Positions 13,156 to 60,748 of a stretch of 64,000 nt of DNA are shown piece by piece (the first letter of the stretch is position 1; each line of letters begins with the position of its first letter). Both the position numbers and the translations under genes were made by a program. The stretch comes from Punctularia strigosozonata HHB-11173 SS5. Its lineage: Eukaryota > Basidiomycota > Agaricomycetes > Corticiales > Punctulariaceae. Location: the NCBI RefSeq assembly GCF_000264995.1, contig NW_006767435.1, positions 2,227,756-2,291,755 of the forward strand. The letters run 5' to 3'. Under the pieces are notes generated by a model. That model ran no database searches, was not told the origin of the DNA, and saw only the letters and a program-made list of their open reading frames with translations.

Positions 13156-14817
13156 TCAGAAATACGACCCTTCTCCAGCGTACGATCTCCCGCTCGCAGC
13201 GTTCGGTCCCGCCGCGTCGGGCGCCGCGTCGACCAGGGCGAGCTCCTCCGCCTGCCGCGCAGCGTACGCCGCCGAGCCGGGTCCGAACGCCGGCGCGGGC
13301 GGTGCGAACGGCTTCGGCGCGACCGCCGCGCGCCCGGCCGGGATCCGCCCCTGAAGCTCGCCCTGCGCCGGGACGGGTTGGAAATTGAGCTGATCGATTC
13401 GTGTCCGTCAGCCAAACCGAGCCTAACCAGCATATCGCTAGAACACACCCACCGAGTCGTTCATGTTCTTGTAGTACTTGAAGAACACGCCCGCGCTCGC
13501 CGCCTCCTCCGCCACGCGCTCCTTCCGCCGCTTGCGCATGTCGTCCTCTCGCGAGCCGCCGCCGACGCTCACCCCGCGCCCGCCGAGCTCGTCCAGCTCG
13601 CGTTTCGCCCACGCCAGAAATGCGACCGCCTCGCCCGCCCGCGCGCCGCCCGGCGCTTCGCCCGCGTCGACGCCGAGCCACTTGTGCGCCAGCGCCGCGT
13701 GCAGCGCGTGTTCGTCCGCCAAATACCTTCTCAGTTCGCTCGCGACTCCGCCCCCTCCGGCGCCGTCATCGTCCGCGTCTTTCTTCCCAAGTCCGAAAGG
13801 ATGTTTCGGTTTGTGCGACGCGCCGGGCGTCTTGGCAAGCGCGCGCGCGGAGGCGTAGGTCTCTGCGCACTCGAGGTGCAGCTTTGCCACGAGCGCCGGC
13901 GATGGGTGCGATTTCGGGAGCGGCGGGCCCGGCGAGAACGCGCTCTCGGCCGTCGCCTTCGTGAGCAGCTTGCGGATCGCGAGCGTCTGCGCGTCCATGA
14001 GCGCCATCCTGTGGGAACGTGTGAGCCTCTTTGCTGGTAACAGTCCAGATGTAGGGAATAGCACGCACTTGGAGAGGGCGGTGGTGACCTCCCTATTCAG
14101 CTCGGGAGGGCGGGCGATCCCTGGCTTGCCGGAGACCCCCCGCTCCCACTGCGGAAGCACGGTCTCAGACACGTACGCGAACACGCCGCTCGCGCGGCAT
14201 AGCAACGTGACGGCGAAGTTGAGCTTGTCGTCCTTCGCCCTCCGCTCCTGCTCGGAGAGGGCACGCGAGCGCTCATAGGCACCTAGGGCAGCGGCAGTTG
14301 CACGAGCGAGATTAGAGAGCGCAAAGGCATAGGTGAGGAGCGCGAAGGCAAGGTCGGCGTGCAGCGTCGGCACGGAGAGGCGTGGGGAGTTGTTGAGTAG
14401 TGTGGAAGCGAGGGTCGTGCGCCAGCTGAAGACTGGAGGGCGGATCAACGATCGTGATCAACTGCAGTAGACGATTTAGCATAGGCTACTTACCTGGTTC
14501 GCTCTTCAGCACGAGCTCTCCGGCTCCGACGCAGGCGATGATGGCACACAGATGCGGGAGATAGTCATCTAGGACCTATACATAGAAGCTAAGCCCAAGC
14601 CGGTCATAAGTATAGACATGGCCCTGAGTACCTTCACCAATCGAAGGTGGTCCTTCTCGCCATCGGCGCGCTTGCTCTCCTTGAGCGCGACGCGGAGGTT
14701 GGCCCTCGCCTGTGTAGCGTTCGCTAGCTGCGTCGTGTACGAGCCCGTCGGGTCGTGGCAAAAGTCGGCAAAGGACACCGCGCCGGTCGTAGGTAGCTCA
14801 TACAGATAGCTGCTCAT
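13156..14817 (-). CDS. palC: pH-response regulator PalC (BRO1-domain protein)
   Basis: PalC links the plasma-membrane pH sensor complex to ESCRT-III in the Pal/RIM alkaline pH pathway. The protein starts MSSYLYELPTTGAVSF and continues with a BRO1-like helical domain: ADLAFALLTYAFALSNLARA, KLNFAVTLLCRASGVFAYV, MALMDAQTLAIRKLL, PLPKSHPSPALVAKLHLECA and HAALAHKWLGVDAGE. The C-terminus has FKYYKNMND and then a Pro/Ala tail with PAGRAAVAPKPFAPP and PAFGPGSAAYA. Exons are 14817-14632, 14575-14494, 14432-14069, 14008-13453 and 13389-13156; every junction keeps the frame with GT-AG signals. Part of its first exon and upstream DNA is copied elsewhere in the window (19660-19837), within the kinase array that begins immediately upstream. 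This full-length copy looks intact. The family assignment rests on recalled PalC sequences. Confidence 0.9.
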
Positions 14818-15086
14818 GGTCGAGGCCAAACCGAGTGAGCCGGGGTATATGAGAGCAAGGAGTGAGTAGTACTTGGGCTGTGGATCGTGATCAGACTGGG
14901 CCGGTACTAGTGCTGTTACCGTTGCGTTGGTCCCATGGTTTTTCACTCCTACCGTCACGATTATCAACAACAGGATTTACGTACAGGAAATGCGTGCAAC
15001 GGAGCTTGTGACAAGTCGTCTCCAACTACGTATCCGAGCTGCGAACTCAAGCTTCAAGGCCAGGGGGATCGAGATAATCACCACAT
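14818..15086 (-). promoter_or_regulatory. palC upstream region, repeated in the kinase array
   Basis: This 270-base gap between the palC start and the stop of kinase copy A should hold the palC promoter. Recognisably similar DNA recurs at about 16760-16850, 19838-19960 and 21420-21460, with shared blocks such as GATCAGACT followed by a GCTGTTACCG block. The same promoter segment therefore appears to have been copied along with the kinase genes. No TATA box is obvious. The role as palC promoter is inferred from position only. Confidence 0.5.
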
Positions 15087-16478
15087 TCAGAGGTTGAACC
15101 ACCTGTGGTGGACGACTTCCTCTATGGTAGCCCTTTCCTCTGGTCGATACTTCGACATCCTCTCCAACAGATCAGAGAGCAATGCTACTTCCTCCTCCGA
15201 CAGCCTGACCCCGGACATCTCTAGCATCGCGCCGTCGTACACGGACGGCTGTTGATCGACGTCGCCTATGGAGCGCACCTTCGCTACAATCGGAGTTTTG
15301 CGAGCCGGTATCGAGACCCCCGCCTGCTTTTGTACCAACATGTCCTTTGGTTCACCATCGTTGTCGAACCAGCGAGCCCCATTCCGAAAGGCGGCCCACC
15401 AAGGATATGGTAACCGTCCAAGGGTTTGGGCAATTTGCCTCAGTATATCGTTGGCGTTTCCGAAGAGCGCTTCAAAGAGAGGATATCCCGCTCGGATTTC
15501 GAAGATAGCGCATCCGAGCAACCAAATATTAGCCTCGATGCCTATACGCCCATCAAAGCGCATCTCCGGCGACTGGTAATGCATCGTTGTGGCGGGTTCA
15601 TAGTCCTTTGGGGGATTGCGGGTGAAGTAGGATTGGCCGAAGTCGATGATCGTAACACATTCTTGGAGAATCGATAAATCTGCCAACCGGGAAAGCTTTT
15701 CGATTCCACGAGCTTGGTGGCTGCATGCGGCCCCGGAGGTGATCCGTCACACGTTCTGAGGTGAACCTAGGTACGCATACACCTCATCATCTGTCCAATC
15801 GACAACAGGCTTCGCCACACGGAATAAGATGTTTGACGTCGTAAGGTCTGCGTAATCATATGAGCGGAGTACATCTCATGAACGTGTCTCTTGCTCACCA
15901 CCGTGAACGATTCCCGCAAAATGCATGCGCCTGATCGCCATCGCTGTCTGCTTTGCAACTGTTCGCGCCAGATCCCCGCGTAAACGACGGCTAGCAGCAA
16001 TTCTGCCTGGTGCGAATACTATATGACGAACGCTGGGGCCAGCAAGTGGATAAACCAGAACGCGACGACATCCATTCGGGCCTTGCACGAGGAAGTGATG
16101 GTCCACGGTGTGGTAATCGCCAGAGCCCGCGATCGCTTATTAGAGCGCCTCCGAGCGGACCAACTCGGGCATCTTCTCTACGGCTGTAGTTGAAACGTCG
16201 ACGCCTATGATCTATGGAGCAAACAATCTGCTGCGAGGATCATTCTGCTGGTAGTCGCGGGCTAGCCAGACGGTCGAAGAGCCTCCAAAGCCGAGCTTGT
16301 GGAGGATTCTGTAACGACCGTTGGCATCAACGTCGCCGAAGGCCACCGGGTGGAAGCCTCCGGGAATATAATCCTCGGCATTTTCGACATCGTACAAACG
16401 AGAAGGGATGAACAGCATTTTTATCCGTGAGTAAGCGTCGGGGCAGGGGACCATAACAATCTCCGCATGCATGTCCAC
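15087..16478 (-). pseudogene. SRPK-like kinase copy A, degenerate
   Basis: This copy aligns by eye along the whole length of the two intact kinases nearby. It keeps the glycine-rich loop LHKLGFGGSSTVWLARD, the HGG/intron/DLTTSNILF catalytic loop, IIDFGQSYF and a PEMRFDG activation-segment end. However, the region after YQQNDPRSRLF runs into a stop where the ATP-binding VALK strand should be. Two adjacent stop codons follow at the position after PELVRSEAL, and another TGA with a local deletion follows AYLGSPQ. A stretch near the C-terminus (VQKQAGVSIPARKTP) is extra compared with the other copies. The intron position (just after HGG) is conserved. It is a host gene copy that lost function after tandem duplication, since the lesions cannot be spliced out with the conserved exon structure. 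Confidence 0.8.
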
Positions 16479-16760
16479 CTGGACCTACTCCAGTCCCTGC
16501 CGACTCAATCCTCTGAGATGCAATCCGCACCCTATCTTCCACGCCTGGTGATGTGCTGGTGGTTGCTCTGTGCAAACCAGTCCTGAAAACGATAACGCGC
16601 AGCATCGGCCAGGAACTCGCAGCCCTTGTTCATCCTTGATTGCGGAACGCGTCGCAAGGTCGTACACATCGATACACAAATTCACACGTCATCTATCCAC
16701 GGATTATGCGAGAAAGCAGGCCACCGTGCACGCAATCGAGGGTGCCAGGGTATACGACCA
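16479..16760. repeat. Kinase-upstream repeat, copy 1
   Basis: DNA upstream of kinase copy A matches the DNA upstream of kinase copy B (19430-19667) closely over about 230 bases. Shared blocks include AGATGCAATCCGCACCCTAT, CAGCATCGGCCAGGAACT and ATTGCGGAACGCGTCGCAAG. Both copies end at CCGTGCACGCAATCGA. In copy 2 this is joined directly to palC exon-1 sequence; here it runs into palC-promoter-like sequence instead. It marks the edge of the duplicated unit. Confidence 0.8.
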
Positions 16761-16854
16761 AGAAGTGAGTAATAGTACTTGAGCTGTACCGTGGTTATGA
16801 TCAGACTCCCGGTGTCGGCAGCGCTGTTACCGCCCCATCGGTCCGAGCCTTCCG

Positions 16855-17915
16855 TGGATATCTTACAGCCGTTTTCAAAAATCATGAGCGCGGCACCAGA
16901 AACAAGATGCGCGTCGTGAATGACCCCAAAGCTGGGTTTGCCGCCAGCACATCGTGTTCGACGACGAACTCTACGATGATGCGCCCTAGGATAGCATGGA
17001 AATGATCAAAATACGCGTGAGGAGCTCAGAGGAAGATTCTGAGGAGTGGTAAACATGATATTCAAAGGAATTAACGAGCAATTTCCCAGTAGCAGGCAAG
17101 GATAGTGTCAGCGAATGTAAACCATGATTATGGACGCTACGTCCAGCAAATCTGGACACAGTCCAGCCTCTGTATGATCAAATATGTGTCCCAGGAGTCT
17201 ACCGATGTATTCGACAACGAGATGTTTGGGAACTCATCGTCGACTCGTCATTGGGGAGCATTGGGTAAGACCCTTATATTAGGGTTACTGCCAGGCTCAC
17301 TGAGGGGCAACCATTGTAAGGTAGCTGTCATGCAAATCTAGACCGATGTCACATGATATGATCGACTGCTTGAAGGCCCTTCTCCTCCTGCAGATCAAGC
17401 ACGATCACCAATGCGCGACCTATATTGTCTAGATACAGTTCATTAGTAGGGATCATAGGTTACGACTCCGACGAAAGAGTAAAACTGCAAGAGCAGATGA
17501 AATTTGAAGCCATTTTTGGCAGCCACGTGATATCGGTCAGGATTTGCATGGCAGCTACCTTACAAGTGTACTGCTCCAAATCAAGGTGTAGCCCGCTATC
17601 AAGAAGATCCCATAGGCGAGTGGAAGTTGACAGAATGGGTGAAAGACAATCCGCCGGGACCATCAAGTTGAGGGAACCAGAAACCCCCAGAAACATTGCA
17701 CATCGTATCTCGAGCTCAAAATCGGGCTAAACCTTGGCTCCCTTATGCTCGGGCATTCCTCAGACAACAACAGCAATACGATCCCGTCGAGATGCCTGAG
17801 CTGGCTGACCTCCTGAGCTGGCGGTGACCCCACTTTAGGGTCGCTCACGATGCGCGTCTCGTTTCTGGTGCCGCGCTCATGATTTTTGAAAACGGCTGTA
17901 TGAATACCGACGGTG
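16855..17915. repeat. Inverted-repeat structure, about 1.06 kb, inside the kinase array
   Basis: The outer arms are about 95 bases each (about 16855-16948 and 17820-17915) and are reverse complements with a core containing CCGTTTTCAAAAATCATGAG and GCGCGGCACCAGAAAC. An inner inverted pair lies at about 17305-17355 and 17524-17573 (core TTGTAAGGTAGCTG, CATGCAAATC). The DNA between the arm pairs is less alike. When read inward, both arms encode similar peptide fragments (TAVFKNHERGTRN and CKVA-MQI), so it looks like two degenerate copies of one unknown gene fragment in opposite orientation rather than a transposon with a transposase. It separates kinase copy B from the upstream DNA of copy A, and explains why that spacing is about 1 kb longer than in the next unit. 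I could not see target-site duplications. Confidence 0.65.
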
Positions 17916-18004
17916 ACATGAACTCCATTATCCTACACTGAACGTTAACGATATTATCATAACAACAACGCTGACGGTCCTACATAGAAATGCAGTCATT
18001 GCTT

Positions 18005-19338
18005 TCAGAGCCTAAACCACCTGTGCTCGACGACCTCCTTCATAGTAGCCCTCTCCTCTGGCCGATATCTCAACATTCTCCCCGACAGGTCCACCAATAG
18101 TTCCACTTCCTCATTCGATAACCTAACCCCGCATTTCTCTATCATCGGGCCCTCGTCCACGGATGACGGCACATCGTCGGTGCCTATGGAGCGCAGCAAG
18201 TCTGCGATAGAAATCTGGGAATCGGGGTTCTTTGGCTGACCGTCGTCCTCGAACCACACGGTCCGCTCCTCGAAGGCCTGCCACCAGGGATCTGGTAACC
18301 GCCCAAGGGTCGCGACGGTTTGTCTCAGTATGCTCGTGGTGGTTGGAAAGAAAGGATCAAAGAGGGGATACCCCACTCGAATCTCGAAAATAGCGCATGC
18401 GAGTGCCCACACGTCAGCCTCGGGGCCTGCACGCCCCTCGAAGCGCATCTCTGGTGGCTTGTAGTGTATGGTTGTGGCAGGCTCATAGTTCTTGGGCGGG
18501 TGGGATATCATGTAGGACTGGCCGAAGTCGATGAGGAGAATGCGTTCTTGCAAAAGCGACAAGTCTGCTAGTCGAGCAAGATTCGCCGGTTCAATGATCT
18601 TAGCGGGTGCATGCGGCTCGCTAGGTGAACCGTCAAGAGTTCTGACGGTCTCACGGCGAGGTTTTCCTAAATACGCATACAACTCCTCATCCGTCCAGTC
18701 AACGACAGGCGCCGCCACACGGAATAAGATGTTGGATGCGGTCAGATCTACGGAAATATGCGGCATGTAAGCGGACGTCGCCTGGCTGACATCACCTCGT
18801 GCTCACCTCCATGAACGATGCCTGAGAGATGCATGCACCATATCGCCAACGCGGTCTGCTTCGCTACCTTCCTCGCCAAATCGCCGCGTAATCGTCGACT
18901 ACCAGCTGGTCTGCCTTCGCAGAGCGCGATAGTATGGACGCTGGGGCCTGCTAACGGACAGGCGAGGAATCGATGACATCCGTTCGGACCTTGTACGAGG
19001 AAGTGATAGTCCACGATCTGGAAATCGAAAGGGCTAGCGATCCTACGGAGCGCGTCCGAAATGACCAACTCGGGTATCTTGTCTACGGCCGCACTTGAGT
19101 CATCGGCGCGCATGGCCTTCAATGCTACCAGTCTGCCATGCGGGTGGTTTTGCTGGTAGTCGCGGGCTAGCCAGACAGTAGAACTTCCCCCGTGGCCGAG
19201 CTTGTGAAGAACTCGATAACGTCCATTGGCGTAACAGTCACCGATGGCTATCGGATGAAACCCTCCCGGTCTGTACTCCTCAGTGTTTTCAACAGCGTCG
19301 AGAGAGGACGGGACGAATCTCCTGTGTGCCCAGTCCAT
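18005..19338 (-). CDS. SRPK-like serine/threonine protein kinase, copy B
   Basis: This is a complete kinase domain of the fungal SRPK-like group, a family that in animals and yeast phosphorylates Arg/Ser-rich proteins. It carries GGFHPIAIGDCYANGRYRVL, the glycine-rich loop LGHGGSSTVWLARD, catalytic Lys in LVALKAM, HGDLTASNILF (catalytic Asp, with Gly in place of Arg of HRD), metal-binding DFGQS, KPPEMRFEG, EADVWALACAIFEI and the C-lobe RMLRYRPEERATMKEVVEHRWF. Exons are 19338-18817 and 18747-18005; the 69-base intron splits the HGD triplet and restores frame exactly. All key catalytic residues are present and no lesion was seen. The substrate is unknown. It lies in a tandem array with copies A, C and D on the same strand. 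Confidence 0.9.
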
Positions 19339-19429
19339 CGCGAGGAAGTTGCTAGTAGAACCAGGAGGCTAACGACTCGAGACCATGACAATCTCCACAT
19401 GATCTCCATGCATGACCACCTTCAACCCC

Positions 19430-19667
19430 TTAAGATGCAATCCGCACCCTATCTTCCCCGCCTGGTGATGTCCTGGTGTTCCCTGTGCAAATCAGGTCTG
19501 CAAACGATAACGGGCAGCATCGGCCAGGAACTTGCAGCCCTTGTTCATGCATTCATGCGATTGCGGAACGCGTCGCAAGGTCGTCTGCACATCGATACAC
19601 AAATTTACACGTTAGCATCTACCTCCGGGTTATGCGAGAAGACAGGTCGCCGTGCACGCAATCGAAG
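19430..19667. repeat. Kinase-upstream repeat, copy 2
   Basis: This is the partner of the repeat at 16479-16760. It begins about 90 bases upstream of the kinase B start codon and runs up to the palC exon-1 fragment. Small indels distinguish it, for example an added ATGCATTC near 19549. It probably contains the promoter of kinase B, so copy A and copy B would have started with the same regulatory DNA. Confidence 0.75.
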
Positions 19668-19837
19668 GTGGTCCTTCTCGCCATCGGCGCGCTTGCTCTC
19701 CTTGAGCGCGACGCGGAGGTTGGCCCTCGCCCGTGTAGCGTCCGCTACCCGGGTCGTGTACGAGCCCGTCGGTGGTGGCAGAAGTCGGCAAAAGATATTG
19801 CGCCTGTCGTAGGTAGCTCATACAGATAGCTACTCAT
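19660..19837 (-). pseudogene. Fragment of palC exon 1
   Basis: About 180 bases match palC exon 1 (14639-14817) at high identity, including the start codon and MSSYLYELPTTGA, and the match continues into the upstream region to about 19885. It lacks everything 3' of a point 8 bases inside the exon end, carries small indels that break the palC frame after ISFADFCHH, and is joined to kinase-upstream DNA. It is therefore a non-functional relic carried along in the duplication that made the kinase array, and it shows that the breakpoint lay inside palC exon 1. Confidence 0.88.
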
Positions 19838-20060
19838 GGTCGAAGCCAAACCGAGTGAGCCGGGGTATGTGAGCAAGGAGAGAGTACAAGTCTTGAGCCC
19901 GAGTGGTTATGAACGGCCTACAGCCGTCGATATCGGAACCGCTGTCACCGCGGTGCCCGTTGTACGTTCCGCAGGAGGTTCAATATCTGAACACCGATCT
20001 GAACACGCATCCCCTCCAAGATGGTTGAAGCAAGATTCTACAGAAATATGCACAGCGCTT

Positions 20061-21389
20061 TCATAACTTGAACCACCTGTGCTCGAGGACCTCCTCCATC
20101 GTAGCCCTCTCCTCTGGCCGATACTTCAGCATCCTTAACAGCAGATCAGACAGTAGTTCTACTTCCTCCTCCGACGGCCTAACCCCGCACTTCTCTATCA
20201 TCGGACCCTCGTCCATGGACGGCGGTTCATCCTCAGTTCCTATAAAGCTCACCAACTCCGGAATAGAAATCTTCAAATCAGGGTCCTTCGGCTCTCCATC
20301 TTCCTCGAACCACTCAGTCCTCGGCTCGAAGGAGCGCCACCAAGGATCTGGTAACCTCCCGAGCATGGTAACAATTTCTCTCATAACGGTTGCATTGTCC
20401 GCCATGAACGATTCAAACAGGGAACAGCCCGCCCGAATCTCATAGATAGCGCAGGCGAGTGCCCATACGTCAGCCTCGGGACCCGTACGCCCCTCGAAGC
20501 GCATCTCTGGGGGCTTGTAGTGTATCGCCGTGGCAGGCCGATAATCCCTTGGTGGATCGGAAATCACATAAGACTGGCCGAAGTCGATGAGGATGATGCG
20601 TTCTTGGAGAAGCGATAGATCTGCCAGTCGAGACAGATTCACCGAGTCGAAGAGGTGGGCGGGTGCATGAGGGCCGCGAGGTGAACCGTCGATCGTCTTA
20701 ACTTCGTCAAAGCGAGGTCTTCCCAGATGAGCGTAAACCTCGTCATCGGTCCAGTCAAAGACCGGCTCCGCCACGCGGAATAGGATGTTTGATGAGGTTA
20801 GATCTTGTTGCATTTGTCAGCGGAGGTCGTCTCTACCATAAACCTCTTCAAGCTGACCTCCATGAACTATTCCTGCAAGATGCATGCGCATTATCGCCAT
20901 CGTTGTCTGCTTCGCAACCTTCCTCGCTAAATCCCCGCGCAAACGTCGACTTCCAGTTATTCTTCCTGGGCAGTTTGTGATGGCGAGAATGCTAGGGCCA
21001 GCAAACGCGGAGACAAGGACTTGATGGCATCCGTTCGGGCCCTGCACGAGGAAGTGATCGTCCACAGTCTGAAAGTCGCAAGAGCCAGTGATCGCACGGA
21101 GGGCCTTCGAGACGATCAACTCGGGCATCTCGTCTCCTGCCGTGCTGGACATGTCGGCGCGCATGACTTTCAAAGCCACCAGTTTGCCACGAGGGCGGTT
21201 TTGCTGATAGTCGCGTGCTAGCCAAACAGTAGAAGAGCCCCCAAAGCCAAGCTTGTGGAGGACACGGTAACGGCCATCGGCATAACAGTCGCCGATTGTT
21301 ATGGGGTGGAAGCCTCCCGGTCTGTATCTCTCGATGGATTCGACATCGTCGAACGAAGAAGGGATGAATCTCCTGGACGGGGGTTCCAT
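20061..21389 (-). CDS. SRPK-like serine/threonine protein kinase, copy C
   Basis: This is the second intact copy, with the same architecture as copy B: GGFHPITIGDCYADGRYRVL, LGFGGSSTVWLARD, LVALKVM, HGDLTSSNILF, IDFGQSYV, KPPEMRFEG, EADVWALACAIYEI and RMLKYRPEERATMEEVLEHRWF. The start at 21389 aligns with that of copy B; an in-frame ATG 11 codons upstream (21422) is an alternative. Exons are 21389-20858 and 20803-20061. The frame across the intron is exact, but the donor is GTCAGC and the acceptor ACAAG, weaker than the equivalents in copy B, so splicing efficiency may be reduced. The catalytic residues are all present. Divergence from copy B at many conserved-type positions suggests the duplication is not very recent. 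Confidence 0.87.
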
Positions 21390-21568
21390 CGAGAGGTAAG
21401 CAGCGCGGCCGCTGGACTGCAATTATTATCAGACTCCGGCAATGCTGTTACCGCTTCCTCGCCTTTCGCCTACATCAGCTTCCGCAAGAGTACTACTTAT
21501 CTGAACACGCATCCCGTCAAGAGATTGTTACAGCAATAGTACAGAACTATGATCATCGCTCTCATAGC

Positions 21569-21866
21569 TTGAACACTGTGCTCGAGGACTTCCTCCATCG
21601 TAGCCCTCTCGTCGGGCCGATACTTCAGCATTTTCGACAGCAGATTGGACAGTAGTTCGACTTCCTCCTCCGACGCGCGCGCCAGCCGGAGAGTAGAAGA
21701 GCCCCCAAAAGCCGAGCTTGCGGAAAATGCGGTAGCGTCCGTCGGCATAGCTATCGCCAATGGCTATTGCGTGATAGCCTCCTTATTTGTATTCCTAGAT
21801 GCACTCCACATCGTCAAAATTGGAAGGAATGAACTTCCTGGGCGGCCATCCTTGGCCATAATCCAT
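21569..21866 (-). pseudogene. SRPK-like kinase copy D, internally deleted stub
   Basis: Only the two ends of the kinase gene remain. The C-terminal block (LLSKMLKYRPDERATMEEVLEH) is fused directly to the N-terminal glycine-rich-loop region (reading SSTLRLA with YADGRYRIF-like sequence upstream), and the whole catalytic core between them is gone. The downstream end lacks the terminal HRWF and has runs out of frame. The upstream end near 21866 still matches the start-codon region of the other copies. It is the oldest-looking member of the array. Confidence 0.8.
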
Positions 21867-56997: not shown

Positions 56998-57518
56998 GCT
57001 TGCTTGAGGAGACCGGGATGGAAAGTATCGTGAGAATCAACTGTTACAGTTCTTCGACCATTGCCAGGTGACCGTGGGATTATGAAGAGTCGCATCGTAT
57101 TACTATGAAGGTCACAGTAAGTATGTCGCGTTCTCTGCGTCAAGAACTGTTCGCTCCGGGCTTCATGTATGATATAGTGCGGATGGATGCACATAGTCGA
57201 CGATATAGTTCTGTCTCGTCGCATATTGAAGTTGTAAGAGCACGGAACCGCCAGCTCTCGTCATTATCATAGGATGTGCTGCTAAATGGAATCAATGTCA
57301 CGGTTCTAGGTTCTGAGCGTCGATTATAACGCATCAGCACTACCAGTTTCTGCAAGACACAGAAGGACTACTTTGGAGCAAAAAAGTCATAACGCAAACG
57401 CAACGAGGCCTCCACAAGATGTTAAATGATCATCGCCAGTGGCTTTCAGGCGCCTTCGTTTCACATCGATCTACTTGGCGTCCTCTTTCCCACATGCACA
57501 TTTCGAATGGCTACGACA
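56998..57518. promoter_or_regulatory. RPS23 upstream region
   Basis: About 520 bases between the RPS23 start and the stop of the short DUF2786 gene. It is presumed to contain the RPS23 promoter. No TATA box or gene was recognised; some of the sequence may be decayed 3' part of the DUF2786 copy. Confidence 0.4.
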
Positions 57519-58282
57519 CTACATGAAGCGTTCGGTGGACGTGAGCGAAGCAATGTGATCAATGCCAATGACGTAGGACATGCCGGCGCGCTGGAGCTTT
57601 TCCGTGATGCTTTCACGAGCAATTTCTGCCTGGGTGACCCGCGAGAGGTTCTAGAAGTTCGGTGCGACAGCCAGTCCTACTTACGCTTTGCCATCAACTT
57701 GGCTGCTTGCCTGCGGGATCATCGTGCAGCGATGAGTCCTTCTATACCTCTACGAATCGTCGGAAGGTAGAGCAAGAACGTACCTCAATGCAGCTCTGGC
57801 TTCGTTCTCTCCTGTGCTAGGATGGCTGGCGAGGCAAAGCGCGCCCTTTATTCTTTCGAGAAATCCAGCACCGACTTTCCCAACTTTCCATGCGGTGCTT
57901 TCCTCAATGACCTTCGAGAGGCGCCGAGGGTATACACCAAATACTGATGTTTGACCTCACTCTCCTGCACGTCCTCGCTGCCGTCGATCGCAAGAGACCG
58001 GCAATGAACACTTTTGTTGCTGGCTGTTTTGGGGCCTTTTCCCTTCCAGTCCTCGGCTTTTTTGCACCCCTCTTCATCTGAAATAATGTCATCGTCAATT
58101 CACCTCCACCCTGGTACCGCACCCTGCAGCTGGCGCATCCCATGTCGAAGGGGAGGCTGACCAATAGATGCTTCATAGTCGGAGCGCTCCAGCTCGCTTT
58201 CGCTTCTGCCAGACGACTCACCACTGTCGGATTTACTGTCTTTACGAGAGGCCCAGGCGCGTTTGAGCTCGTTTGAGTGCAT
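57519..58282 (-). CDS. Short DUF2786-domain gene copy, probably truncated
   Basis: This is a shortened relative of the full DUF2786 gene 2.3 kb upstream. The diagnostic block reads KVGAGFLERIKGALCLASHP, STGENEARAALR, then RQAAKLMAKR, an intron, and VTQAEIARESITEKLQRAGM, in the same order and with the same intron positions as the larger gene. It stops soon after (TAG at 57521-57519), before the downstream domain that the larger gene has. The first exon (MHSNELKRAWASRKDSKSDS) is unlike the partner's N-terminus, and the frames between it and the DUF2786 block are interrupted, so a working full-length product is doubtful. It could be a pseudogene or a gene for a short protein. The shared exons indicate tandem duplication. 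Confidence 0.6.
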
Positions 58283-58576
58283 CGTTTCGGCGACTCGTGT
58301 CGCGCCGGTTTGACTTTTACTGCCGCGCGGTGTACCGGGTCAAGAGGTTTTATGTGCTTCTCTGATACGTATTCACTCTTGAAATTTACTTATACTGTAC
58401 GAATTCGAGAATGCCGAGGACTATACTCACACCCGGAGGCTTCCATCCAGTAGTCATCGGTGACATGCGCACAAATGATCATTGCGGACTCCACAATCTT
58501 GGCTCCGGAGGTTCCTATGTCGCGACACCCCCTGATGGAAATCACATTTGTAGCATAGGCTAGAACAATATCATCA

Positions 58577-60748
58577 TCAGGAATCATCTTCAGCGGCTTT
58601 CAGCCGCCTCCTCTTCACGTCAATCTTCTTCGCATCCTCCTCTCCATCCTTGTACATTCTCCGGGCATGCTGATCCTTGAACATGATCTTTGGTGTTTTA
58701 CGTTTCGTGGAGAGCTCAACACCGACGGAGGCGAGGTACTCATCTGCTACAGCAACGGATTGCGCGCGGAAGGTGGTCAGGGCACCCACTGAATTCCAAG
58801 GTGTTTCGTCAGGTTCTTCCTCTGCGATCGTGTCAACAAGTGTAGGGGGGTTCGGCTCCGGACCAGTTCCTAACAATCCTGGGGTAGCTCTGCTCAACTC
58901 TCCATCCAGCGCGGGTTCGGGACGGAGGCTCGGTAGATCATACTCTCCGTCCTCGTCCTCGTCATTTTCATGGAAATCCGCCTGTTGGAAATCTCCTGGA
59001 TCATATTCAAAGTCCGCGTGATCGATATCTGGGTAATGGTCAGTTCCATTTCCCGTGTTCATGCCGTTTGCCGGCTTGTTCTCGACAGTATCCTCGAGTG
59101 GCGCGGGATTCGTGGCCGTCTCCGCGTCTTCATCTTCGACATCTATGATCGTCACCTTCTTGTTCCCCTCAGCACGTGGCTCCGACTCCATCTTGACCTC
59201 AATTTTGATTGCAACCGAGGCATCGGTCGCAAGCCCTGGTTCCTTCAAGCCTTCCAGCGTGCTCTTGTCGTCCTCCTCCACCTTTACCGCGGCCAAGGCA
59301 CCATTCGCATGATTAGGCAGGTGGTCCGAACTAATCGTATCGTCCTCTTCCACCTTGATAGCGACCAGAGCATCATCTGCGATATCGGGCTGCTGGAGCC
59401 GCTCCAACCTCTTTTTGTCGTCCTCTTCTTCTTGTTTTCTCGCCGCTTCGAGAAGTAGCTTCTCCTTGCGCTCGGCATTTCTCTGCTCTTCGTTCTTCTC
59501 TCTGATTGCCACGTTCCAGAGACCGTCCGCCACTCCGCGTCGATAGGCACTACAACGGCAACGATCAGCGACACCGCACGAGTCTCGACGCGGCTCCATG
59601 ATTTTCGCGCACTTTTTTGCGTTCCTGCCTTTCGCTTCGGTTTTGTCCATCGACCAACGCATGATCTGGTTATAGACCTAAGTCGCAATCAGTCAACTAC
59701 AGTGTGTCTCGCTTGCTCGAATATCAGTAACCCCCTACCATCTCGTACGCATGAGCCGCAGCGACCGTTTGTTCAGCCAGACCTGGTATTACGATGTTTT
59801 AGCACTCGAAGAGGTGCTCCCTTTGGGCGTACCGTAGAAAGTATACGACACCCGATCAATCTGTTCAAAGGTTGTGGTATAGAATTTACAGTCGAAGAAC
59901 TTGGTGACGGCCGACGCCGCCCCGCTGGCCCAGGTTTCGCACATAACCTGAGTATCTTTGGTGCTTCTCACGATCACGACTCTGAACGAGGATGAGAATA
60001 CTGATTCGGCTGAGTGTCTGAGGTAGATAACGCACGACATGCCGGCACGCTTGAGTTTCTCCTGGCTGTTCTCGCGAGCAATGATCTCGGCCTGTGTGAC
60101 ACTGCGAACGTAGTCAACACATATATACTTAGCAATCGTTGCCCCCGTTTGTCGACTATGACGTACTTGTGCTTCGCCATCAACTTCGATGCTTGCCTGT
60201 GATCGCATTGTCCGTGAGACCCCCGGTGTTCATACAGCAATGGAAAGAAGGAGCTAACCTGAGAGCAGCCTTGGCCTCATTTTCGCCAGTACCCGGGTGA
60301 TTCGCGAGACGCAACGCTCCCTTGATCCTTTCAAGGATGTCATGTCCGACCTGGCCCACTTTTCGTCATGCGTCCTGGTGTTAGTCATTCTGCAACGCAA
60401 TGAAAACCATTTTACCAACATTTTGCTTCCCTTTCCTGAGCATCGACGTTGTCGTTGCCGTCGGTTGCAAGGTTTGCAATGGACGCTTTGGTCGGAGGCT
60501 CTTTCTCCTTCTTGACCCTTTGTCTTTTCGGAGCCTTCCGCTGTTAAGTAATGATGAGTACCAACGGAAAATCTTGTCGCAGGGCCATTCCAGGGACAAC
60601 TTTTCCAAGCACGCACCTTCGGGGCCTGAAATTCCTCGTCGCTATTGCTTGATTCACGAGAGAACATGCTCCCTTCCTCATCCGAGTCGGAATCGAGGTA
60701 CGCCGAGAGCCAGTTGCGTTTTCGCGCTGTCCGTTCAGGGCGGCCCAT
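58577..60748 (-). CDS. DUF2786 protein with SUMO-type motif repeats
   Basis: The protein starts MGRPERTARKRNWLSAYLDS with an acidic Ser-rich N-terminus, then a basic nuclear-localisation-like stretch (APKRQRVKKEKEPPTK). The DUF2786 motif follows: VGHDILERIKGALRLANHPG and TGENEAKAALR with QASKLMAKHK, then VTQAEIIARENSQEKLKRAG. A second conserved domain contains ASAVTKFFDCKFYTTTFEQI and DRVSYTFYGTP. The C-terminal half is coiled and acidic (EEQRNAERKEKLLLEAARKQ), contains a run of psi-K-x-E motifs and VTIIDVEDEDAE, and ends KIDVKRRRLKAAEDDS. About nine exons join in frame as far as could be checked. I recall this DUF2786-plus-second-domain layout in agaricomycetes; its function is unknown, but the basic motifs and SUMO-type sites suggest a nuclear role. 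Confidence 0.78.

Follow-up and report, generated by a model that had tools for sequence, protein, structure and literature searches.

The 64,000-nucleotide window analysed here comes from the basidiomycete Punctularia strigosozonata HHB-11173 SS5 (contig NW_006767435.1, positions 2,227,756 to 2,291,755 of the forward strand) and contains the BRO1-domain gene palC next to a tandem array of genes related to the SR-type protein kinases (SRPKs). Comparison of the window with itself, together with its repeat families, places four SRPK-like kinase copies, A, B, C and D, upstream of palC and all on the minus strand. The initial annotation of this DNA had described one broken copy, two intact copies and a deleted stub on a single strand, an account confirmed by the self-comparison and the gene models. 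Read along the minus strand the order is D, P_D, C, P_C, E1', U_B, B, P_B with two miniature inverted-repeat transposable elements (MITEs), U_A, A, P_A and palC. E1' is a copy of the 5' end of palC, U a segment upstream of the kinases, and P a diverged 3'-flank segment that follows each kinase and is common to the four units. The genome searched for relatives of these elements comprises 33.6 Mb in 32 contigs, with the array on contig C3. The fungus also bears a laccase, which eight solved laccases match at E 1e-60 or better (best 1.1e-66), none of them identical to it in the alignment listed. The features are listed below in window coordinates.

13156-14817, minus strand: palC, five exons, 473 amino acids, BRO1 domain PF03097
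14638-14868, minus strand: source of the array copy, comprising the 5' flank and all of palC exon 1 except the final 6 bases
14869-15086, minus strand: P_A, diverged shared segment between kinase A and palC
15087-16418, minus strand: kinase copy A, broken by four in-frame stops; intron 15898-15848
16440-16745, minus strand: U_A, kinase-upstream segment, whose far edge still shows the palC exon-1 end in 11 of 12 bases
16745-16865, minus strand: P_B, the part beyond the MITE
16866-17898, strand undefined: outer MITE, bounded by inverted ends and a TA target duplication and containing the inner MITE
17319-17560, strand undefined: inner MITE, 242 bp, TA target duplication
17901-18004, minus strand: P_B, the part adjoining kinase B
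18005-19338, minus strand: kinase copy B, intact, 424 amino acids; intron 18806-18748
19360-19671, minus strand: U_B, kinase-upstream segment adjoining the palC exon copy
19659-19886, minus strand: E1', dead duplicate of the palC 5' end (exon 1 with 5' flank)
19887-20060, minus strand: P_C, diverged shared segment
20061-21389, minus strand: kinase copy C, intact, 424 amino acids; intron 20857-20804
21400-21566, minus strand: P_D, in a D-C interval that lacks both U and the palC exon
21566-21866, minus strand: kinase copy D, stub
58396-58515, plus strand: isolated N-terminal relic of the same kinase family

Shared segments and the age of the junctions

The self-comparison resolves the array into direct repeats whose E-values rule out a chance origin. 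The 5' end of palC (14638-14868) recurs at 19659-19886 with 91.8% identity over 231 columns (E 3e-89), and A with its upstream segment (15086-16744) matches B with the equivalent segment (18004-19670) at 69.9% over 1714 columns. B and C are 75.6% identical, A and C 69.1%, and C and D 84.0% over 181 columns. Shared DNA between the units, which the initial annotation had proposed, is present both as the copy of palC exon 1 with its 5' flank and as the kinase-upstream segment U. That account of the array was right as far as it went but incomplete, as it missed the P segments, the MITEs, a related kinase pair on contig C20 and the relic at 58.4 kb.

The junction between palC sequence and U, CTTCGATTG on the palC side and CGTGCACGG on the U side, lies six bases before the end of palC exon 1. 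It is whole between C and B and eroded between B and A, where the palC exon is nearly lost and 11 of the 12 last copied bases are kept at the same edge of U. Because the B-A junction retains this trace of the breakpoint, palC exon 1 probably belongs to the repeat unit. U adjoins the kinase start upstream of A and of B; it was not found beside C, and neither the palC exon nor U was found between D and C. A whole-genome DNA search with the palC segment returned two places and no third, and one with the junction and U returned four places, all within the array. The origin of U was also sought across the genome with its DNA and its 43-residue translation, which recovered the array copies only. The P segments are homologous, with five of the six pairs scoring above all 500 shuffles.

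The age of these segments does not match that of the kinases they separate. Synonymous divergence (dS) between the kinases, estimated by three methods, is 0.73-0.80 for B-C, 0.88-0.96 for A-B and 0.93-1.00 for A-C. At such values a dead exon copy is expected to be 65-70% identical to a palC frozen in sequence, or 46-53% if both had changed freely, whereas the observed identity is 92%. Over the 231 columns there are 16 substitutions and 3 gap columns, including one frame-shifting deletion in the coding part of E1'. Identity falls to about half beyond position 14868, the edge of the palC copy. On the other side of the junction U_A and U_B are 89% identical in a 230-base core and 83% over all 289 aligned bases, compared with approximately 70% for the flanking kinases, and identity drops sharply from U to about 62% at the kinase start. 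At the junction 73 successive bases are identical, a run with p 0.010 under random placement. Divergence on either side of the junction is several times lower than between the kinases, and it follows from the contrast of 92% and 89% with a dS of 0.73-1.0 that the junction DNA was copied or converted later. Judged from these identities, later gene conversion is the best reading, favoured over its main rival, a late insertion by template switching.

The earlier proposal that the original duplication break lay inside palC exon 1 consequently stands in part: the palC 5' end is in the unit and the breakpoint is shared, but the same contrast means that the present junction is not an untouched record of the first break. 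Homogenisation of whole units is rejected, since a scan for conversion tracts in the kinase coding sequence (50-codon windows in 40-codon steps, 8 pairs) yielded no window that stands out. A recent tandem duplication of a block comprising U, A, P and the palC exon is likewise rejected as the source of the young junction, as the kinase and the P segment beside E1' are of the C type. An assembly duplicate is unlikely for the exon copy given its 8% difference and the frame-shifting deletion.

The spacer between A and B consists mostly of the 1033-bp outer MITE (16866-17898), which encloses the 242-bp inner MITE (17319-17560). TA duplications flank both elements, and the inner site is empty in three other aligned copies of the outer MITE. 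Among the larger pieces related to the outer MITE the closer copies are 86-96% identical and the others 68-77%, and relatives of the inner MITE are 91-99% identical. Full-length members of the outer family occur on several contigs, in addition to the more distant set at 68-77%. Since the two MITEs are located inside P_B, they presumably post-date the array.

The kinase copies and their relatives

B and C are open two-exon genes of 424 amino acids each, with one short GT-AG intron at a common position (donor GTGAGC in B and GTCAGC in C). The gene model of A contains four in-frame stops. D retains approximately 44-49 N-terminal and 34 C-terminal codons, which were brought together by loss of the middle, and stops occur among the N-terminal ones. 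Both intact proteins match the Pfam Pkinase family, and B, the copy searched against the PDB, has 1how as its top match (E 1.6e-23); the best 13 of the 60 matches listed are Sky1, SRPK1 and SRPK2, ahead of CLK and others, so that among solved kinases B is closest to Sky1/SRPK. Two residues past the aspartate of the catalytic loop, all five full-length copies aligned (A, B, C and the two C20 copies) have threonine in place of lysine and read HGDLT.SN; none has the SRPK loop H-T-D-x-K-P-E-N, and the canonical SRPK of the same genome reads HTDLKPEN. For this reason the copies are named SRPK-like rather than SRPK. An insert of about 55 residues is present between the catalytic loop and DFG; the spacer described for SRPKs, which splits the kinase core, is larger (PMC5293202). 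Given the threonine in the loop, the statement in the initial annotation that two copies keep all catalytic residues is slightly too strong. By family, the sequences point to the array kinases being most likely dispensable SR-type protein kinases, and B and C are probably working genes.

The copies differ in the selection they record. The ratio of non-synonymous to synonymous divergence (dN/dS) is 0.23-0.26 for B-C, which indicates purifying selection, and 0.19-0.26 for the C20 pair. In columns without gaps in any of the five full-length copies, changes private to A are spread over the three codon positions as 23/19/21 (p 0.83 against an even distribution), and those private to B (26/14/37, p 0.006) and C (24/15/43, p 0.0006) are uneven. 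Private synonymous and non-synonymous changes number 19 and 43 in A, 34 and 43 in B, and 43 and 39 in C. These patterns are those of neutral decay in A and of constraint on B and C. With stops in A, a stub in D and intact B and C, the copies stand at different stages of decay as had been noted, and the birth-and-death evolution then suggested agrees with the presence of duplicates, pseudogenes of different age and constrained survivors.

A whole-genome search with C, in which 13 candidates were scored, recovered a tandem pair of family members on contig C20 (C20a and C20b, at 318931-320277 and 320745-322082), each open once one intron is removed and 89.5% identical to one another in coding DNA, as well as the canonical SRPK on contig C13 as a weak match. 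A is 79-80% identical to the C20 pair compared with 71.5% to B and to C. In columns free of gaps in all five sequences, 93 of the 193 sites that divide two sequences from three separate B and C from A and the C20 pair, with 12 each uniting A with B and A with C. An 11-residue insertion is common to A and the C20 pair, and a protein tree groups them with a bootstrap of 75/100. By these comparisons the nearest relatives of A are the C20 pair and not B and C. The C20 region (313500-329000) contains no match to P, U or palC. Because A sits within array-specific flanks and the C20 copies do not, the array probably exported an A-type kinase to C20 and less likely received one, the direction being deduced from the flanks.

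A further relic of the family (58396-58515), 37 kb from the array, is 71.3% identical to A in the self-comparison (E 2e-9). Of five queries used in tblastn, four recover it, at E 2e-4 to 8e-4, and C does not. Short direct repeats occur around it within 57429-60100, one pair at 57429-57485 and 58583-58639 (79%) and another at 57568-57638 and 60027-60100 (74%). This relic was missed by the genome search with C, so other small relics may have been missed too. A general kinase search, in which 123 of 441 candidates were scored and the array copies were unlisted, is no guide to family size.

Origin of the array and competing explanations

It is proposed, with a probability of roughly 0.6, that the array arose from a tandem unit running through palC exon 1, that its junctions were later refreshed, that the kinases underwent birth and death and that an A-type copy reached C20. 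In the order of events that we infer, a unit composed of U, an SRPK-like kinase, P and palC exon 1 would have been duplicated in tandem, the breaks falling at the edge of U and within palC exon 1, six bases short of the exon end. Successive rounds would have produced at least four units. Deletions would have left the D-C junction without palC exon and U, reduced the exon to a remnant at the B-A junction and cut out the central part of D. The dead exon would later have been re-copied from palC, or the reverse, and U copied between units, presumably by gene conversion, as the kinases kept diverging. B and C would have been retained as genes, with A dying by point mutation and D by deletion, and an A-type kinase without its flanks would have been copied to another contig and then doubled there. 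More tentatively, the spacers may undergo concerted evolution within a birth-and-death family of kinases, conversion keeping the palC-exon and U junctions alike with the living palC as donor and leaving the kinases to diverge freely. If true, palC would be exposed to back-conversion from its frame-shifted copy.

Several observations weigh against this scheme. The case for conversion is made from identity in one genome, and mismatches in U show no gradient away from the junction (p 0.83), for which reason a break-centred tract is not claimed. The remnant of 11 of 12 bases at the B-A junction could be microhomology, and the P_A-P_C pair taken alone is not significant, its score being reached by 56 of 500 shuffles. 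Among the coding substitutions between palC and E1', 7 of 13 are synonymous, which is above the expectation for a purely neutral dead copy; within 14711-14812 the synonymous share is 6 of 8 before the frame-shifting deletion and 1 of 5 after it, in small numbers. Part of this divergence may consequently have arisen in a working palC or a working donor. With regard to the kinases, dN/dS is low (0.20-0.31) in pairs involving A as well, from which it follows that A died late, and the codon-position contrast of A with B and C together reaches only p 0.046. The bootstrap for A with the C20 pair depends on a rough and very distant outgroup.

The main rival holds that the palC piece came late, template-switching repair having placed 14638-14868 into an existing array with the help of a 9-12 base match at the U edge and the shared P at the other end, so that the B-A junction never had the exon. 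The 92% identity of the palC copy, far above that of the kinases and P, its upstream border within P and the match of 11 of 12 bases at the U edge all agree with such an event. On the other hand the palC match at the exact spot between B and A would then be due to chance and the youth of U would call for a second event, and this explanation is considered rather unlikely. The likeness of U in A and B could alternatively reflect a regulatory element under purifying selection, as its position just upstream of each kinase start and its 89% core identity might suggest. This is improbable, however, given that no U was found at the C20 kinases or beside C, that A is a dead gene and that the palC copy is left unexplained. 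A single original duplication through palC exon 1 followed by unequal crossing-over and clock-like decay, with no later copying, accounts for the order of the elements and the shared breakpoint but predicts at most 65-70% identity for the exon copy and is hard to square with the U core at 89%, which makes it very unlikely.

Least credible of all is the capture of palC-type promoters by kinases co-regulated with pH signalling. A copy of the palC 5' flank does lie upstream of B in the same orientation, and the 1001 bp upstream of A hold 3 GCCARG sites (a PacC-type motif) where about 1.2 are expected. Past the 5' untranslated region, however, identity among the P segments is only about one half, A is a pseudogene and the C20 kinases are without such a flank. 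GCCARG has a density of 1.22 per kb over the window, and it occurs once in the 722 bp upstream of B, not at all in the 177 bp upstream of C and once in the 269 bp upstream of palC. The sites upstream of A, B, C and palC show no clear enrichment and lend the pH link no support.

The locus shows clearly how a tandem array can take along part of a neighbouring gene. It also cautions against placing an original break by junction sequence alone, since such sequence may be much younger than the duplication it marks, and it provides an example of a small fungal SRPK-like family that occurs at a second locus as members at the first decay.

palC and comparison with known systems

The neighbouring gene has exons at 14817-14632, 14575-14494, 14432-14069, 14008-13453 and 13389-13156. 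Its product matches BRO1 (PF03097) with 65.7 bits against a cut-off of 35.1 over residues 28-423 of 473, the sole Pfam match at E 0.1. The translation also contains a PxxR motif (IPAGR) and a terminal di-aromatic SYF, positions that were judged by eye against the published description of PalC, in which Pro439 and Arg442 of conserved region I and C-terminal di-aromatic residues are reported (PMC2171039). A PDB search with the piece of palC lacking exons 4 and 5 matched no chain up to E 1. The genome holds eight BRO1 matches in four places. Apart from the palC of the window, a piece on C1 matches ALIX over 234 residues past the start of the V region (E 4e-13), one on C15 gives a weak ALIX match (E 6e-4), and the last of the four places, C3:1104424, scores 22.9 bits. 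The name palC given in the initial annotation is well supported by the BRO1 domain, the PxxR motif and the di-aromatic C-terminus, though these are general sequence features and not a match to a PalC-specific model.

PalC/Rim23 of basidiomycetes has been described for Cryptococcus and Ustilago (PMC4393102). The palC of the window resembles PalC/Rim23 in having BRO1 as its only Pfam match, the PxxR motif and the C-terminal di-aromatic residues. Nothing unusual was noticed in the gene itself, of which only exon 1 and the 5' flank have been duplicated.

Expansion of SRPK and SRPK-like (SRPKL) genes, possibly including pseudokinases, is described for A. nidulans, N. crassa, dermatophytes and Fusarium, with a function that is little understood (PMC3591445, PMC6001611); the available text of PMC12394161 does not mention SRPK. 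Like the sets described in A. nidulans (SrpkB-G) and Fusarium (SRPKL), the present family adds further SRPK-type genes to one canonical SRPK, but here they form a tandem array tied to the exon of a neighbour and carry an HGDLT loop, the comparison being one of descriptions and not of sequences. With Sky1, SRPK1 and SRPK2, the best PDB matches of B, the array kinases share the N-terminal start GGFHP...GD and, as far as the catalytic loop, the kinase signature; they differ in the change of the loop lysine to threonine and in having only about 55 residues from the catalytic loop to DFG.

Birth-and-death evolution of tandem gene families is reportedly also seen in fungi in the hydrophobins. The present array has the features of such families, namely tandem copies, pseudogenes at several stages and constrained survivors, and differs from the typical case in that its junction DNA is younger than the genes and one lineage resides on another contig. 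Overall it looks like an ordinary, well-preserved example of birth-and-death evolution.

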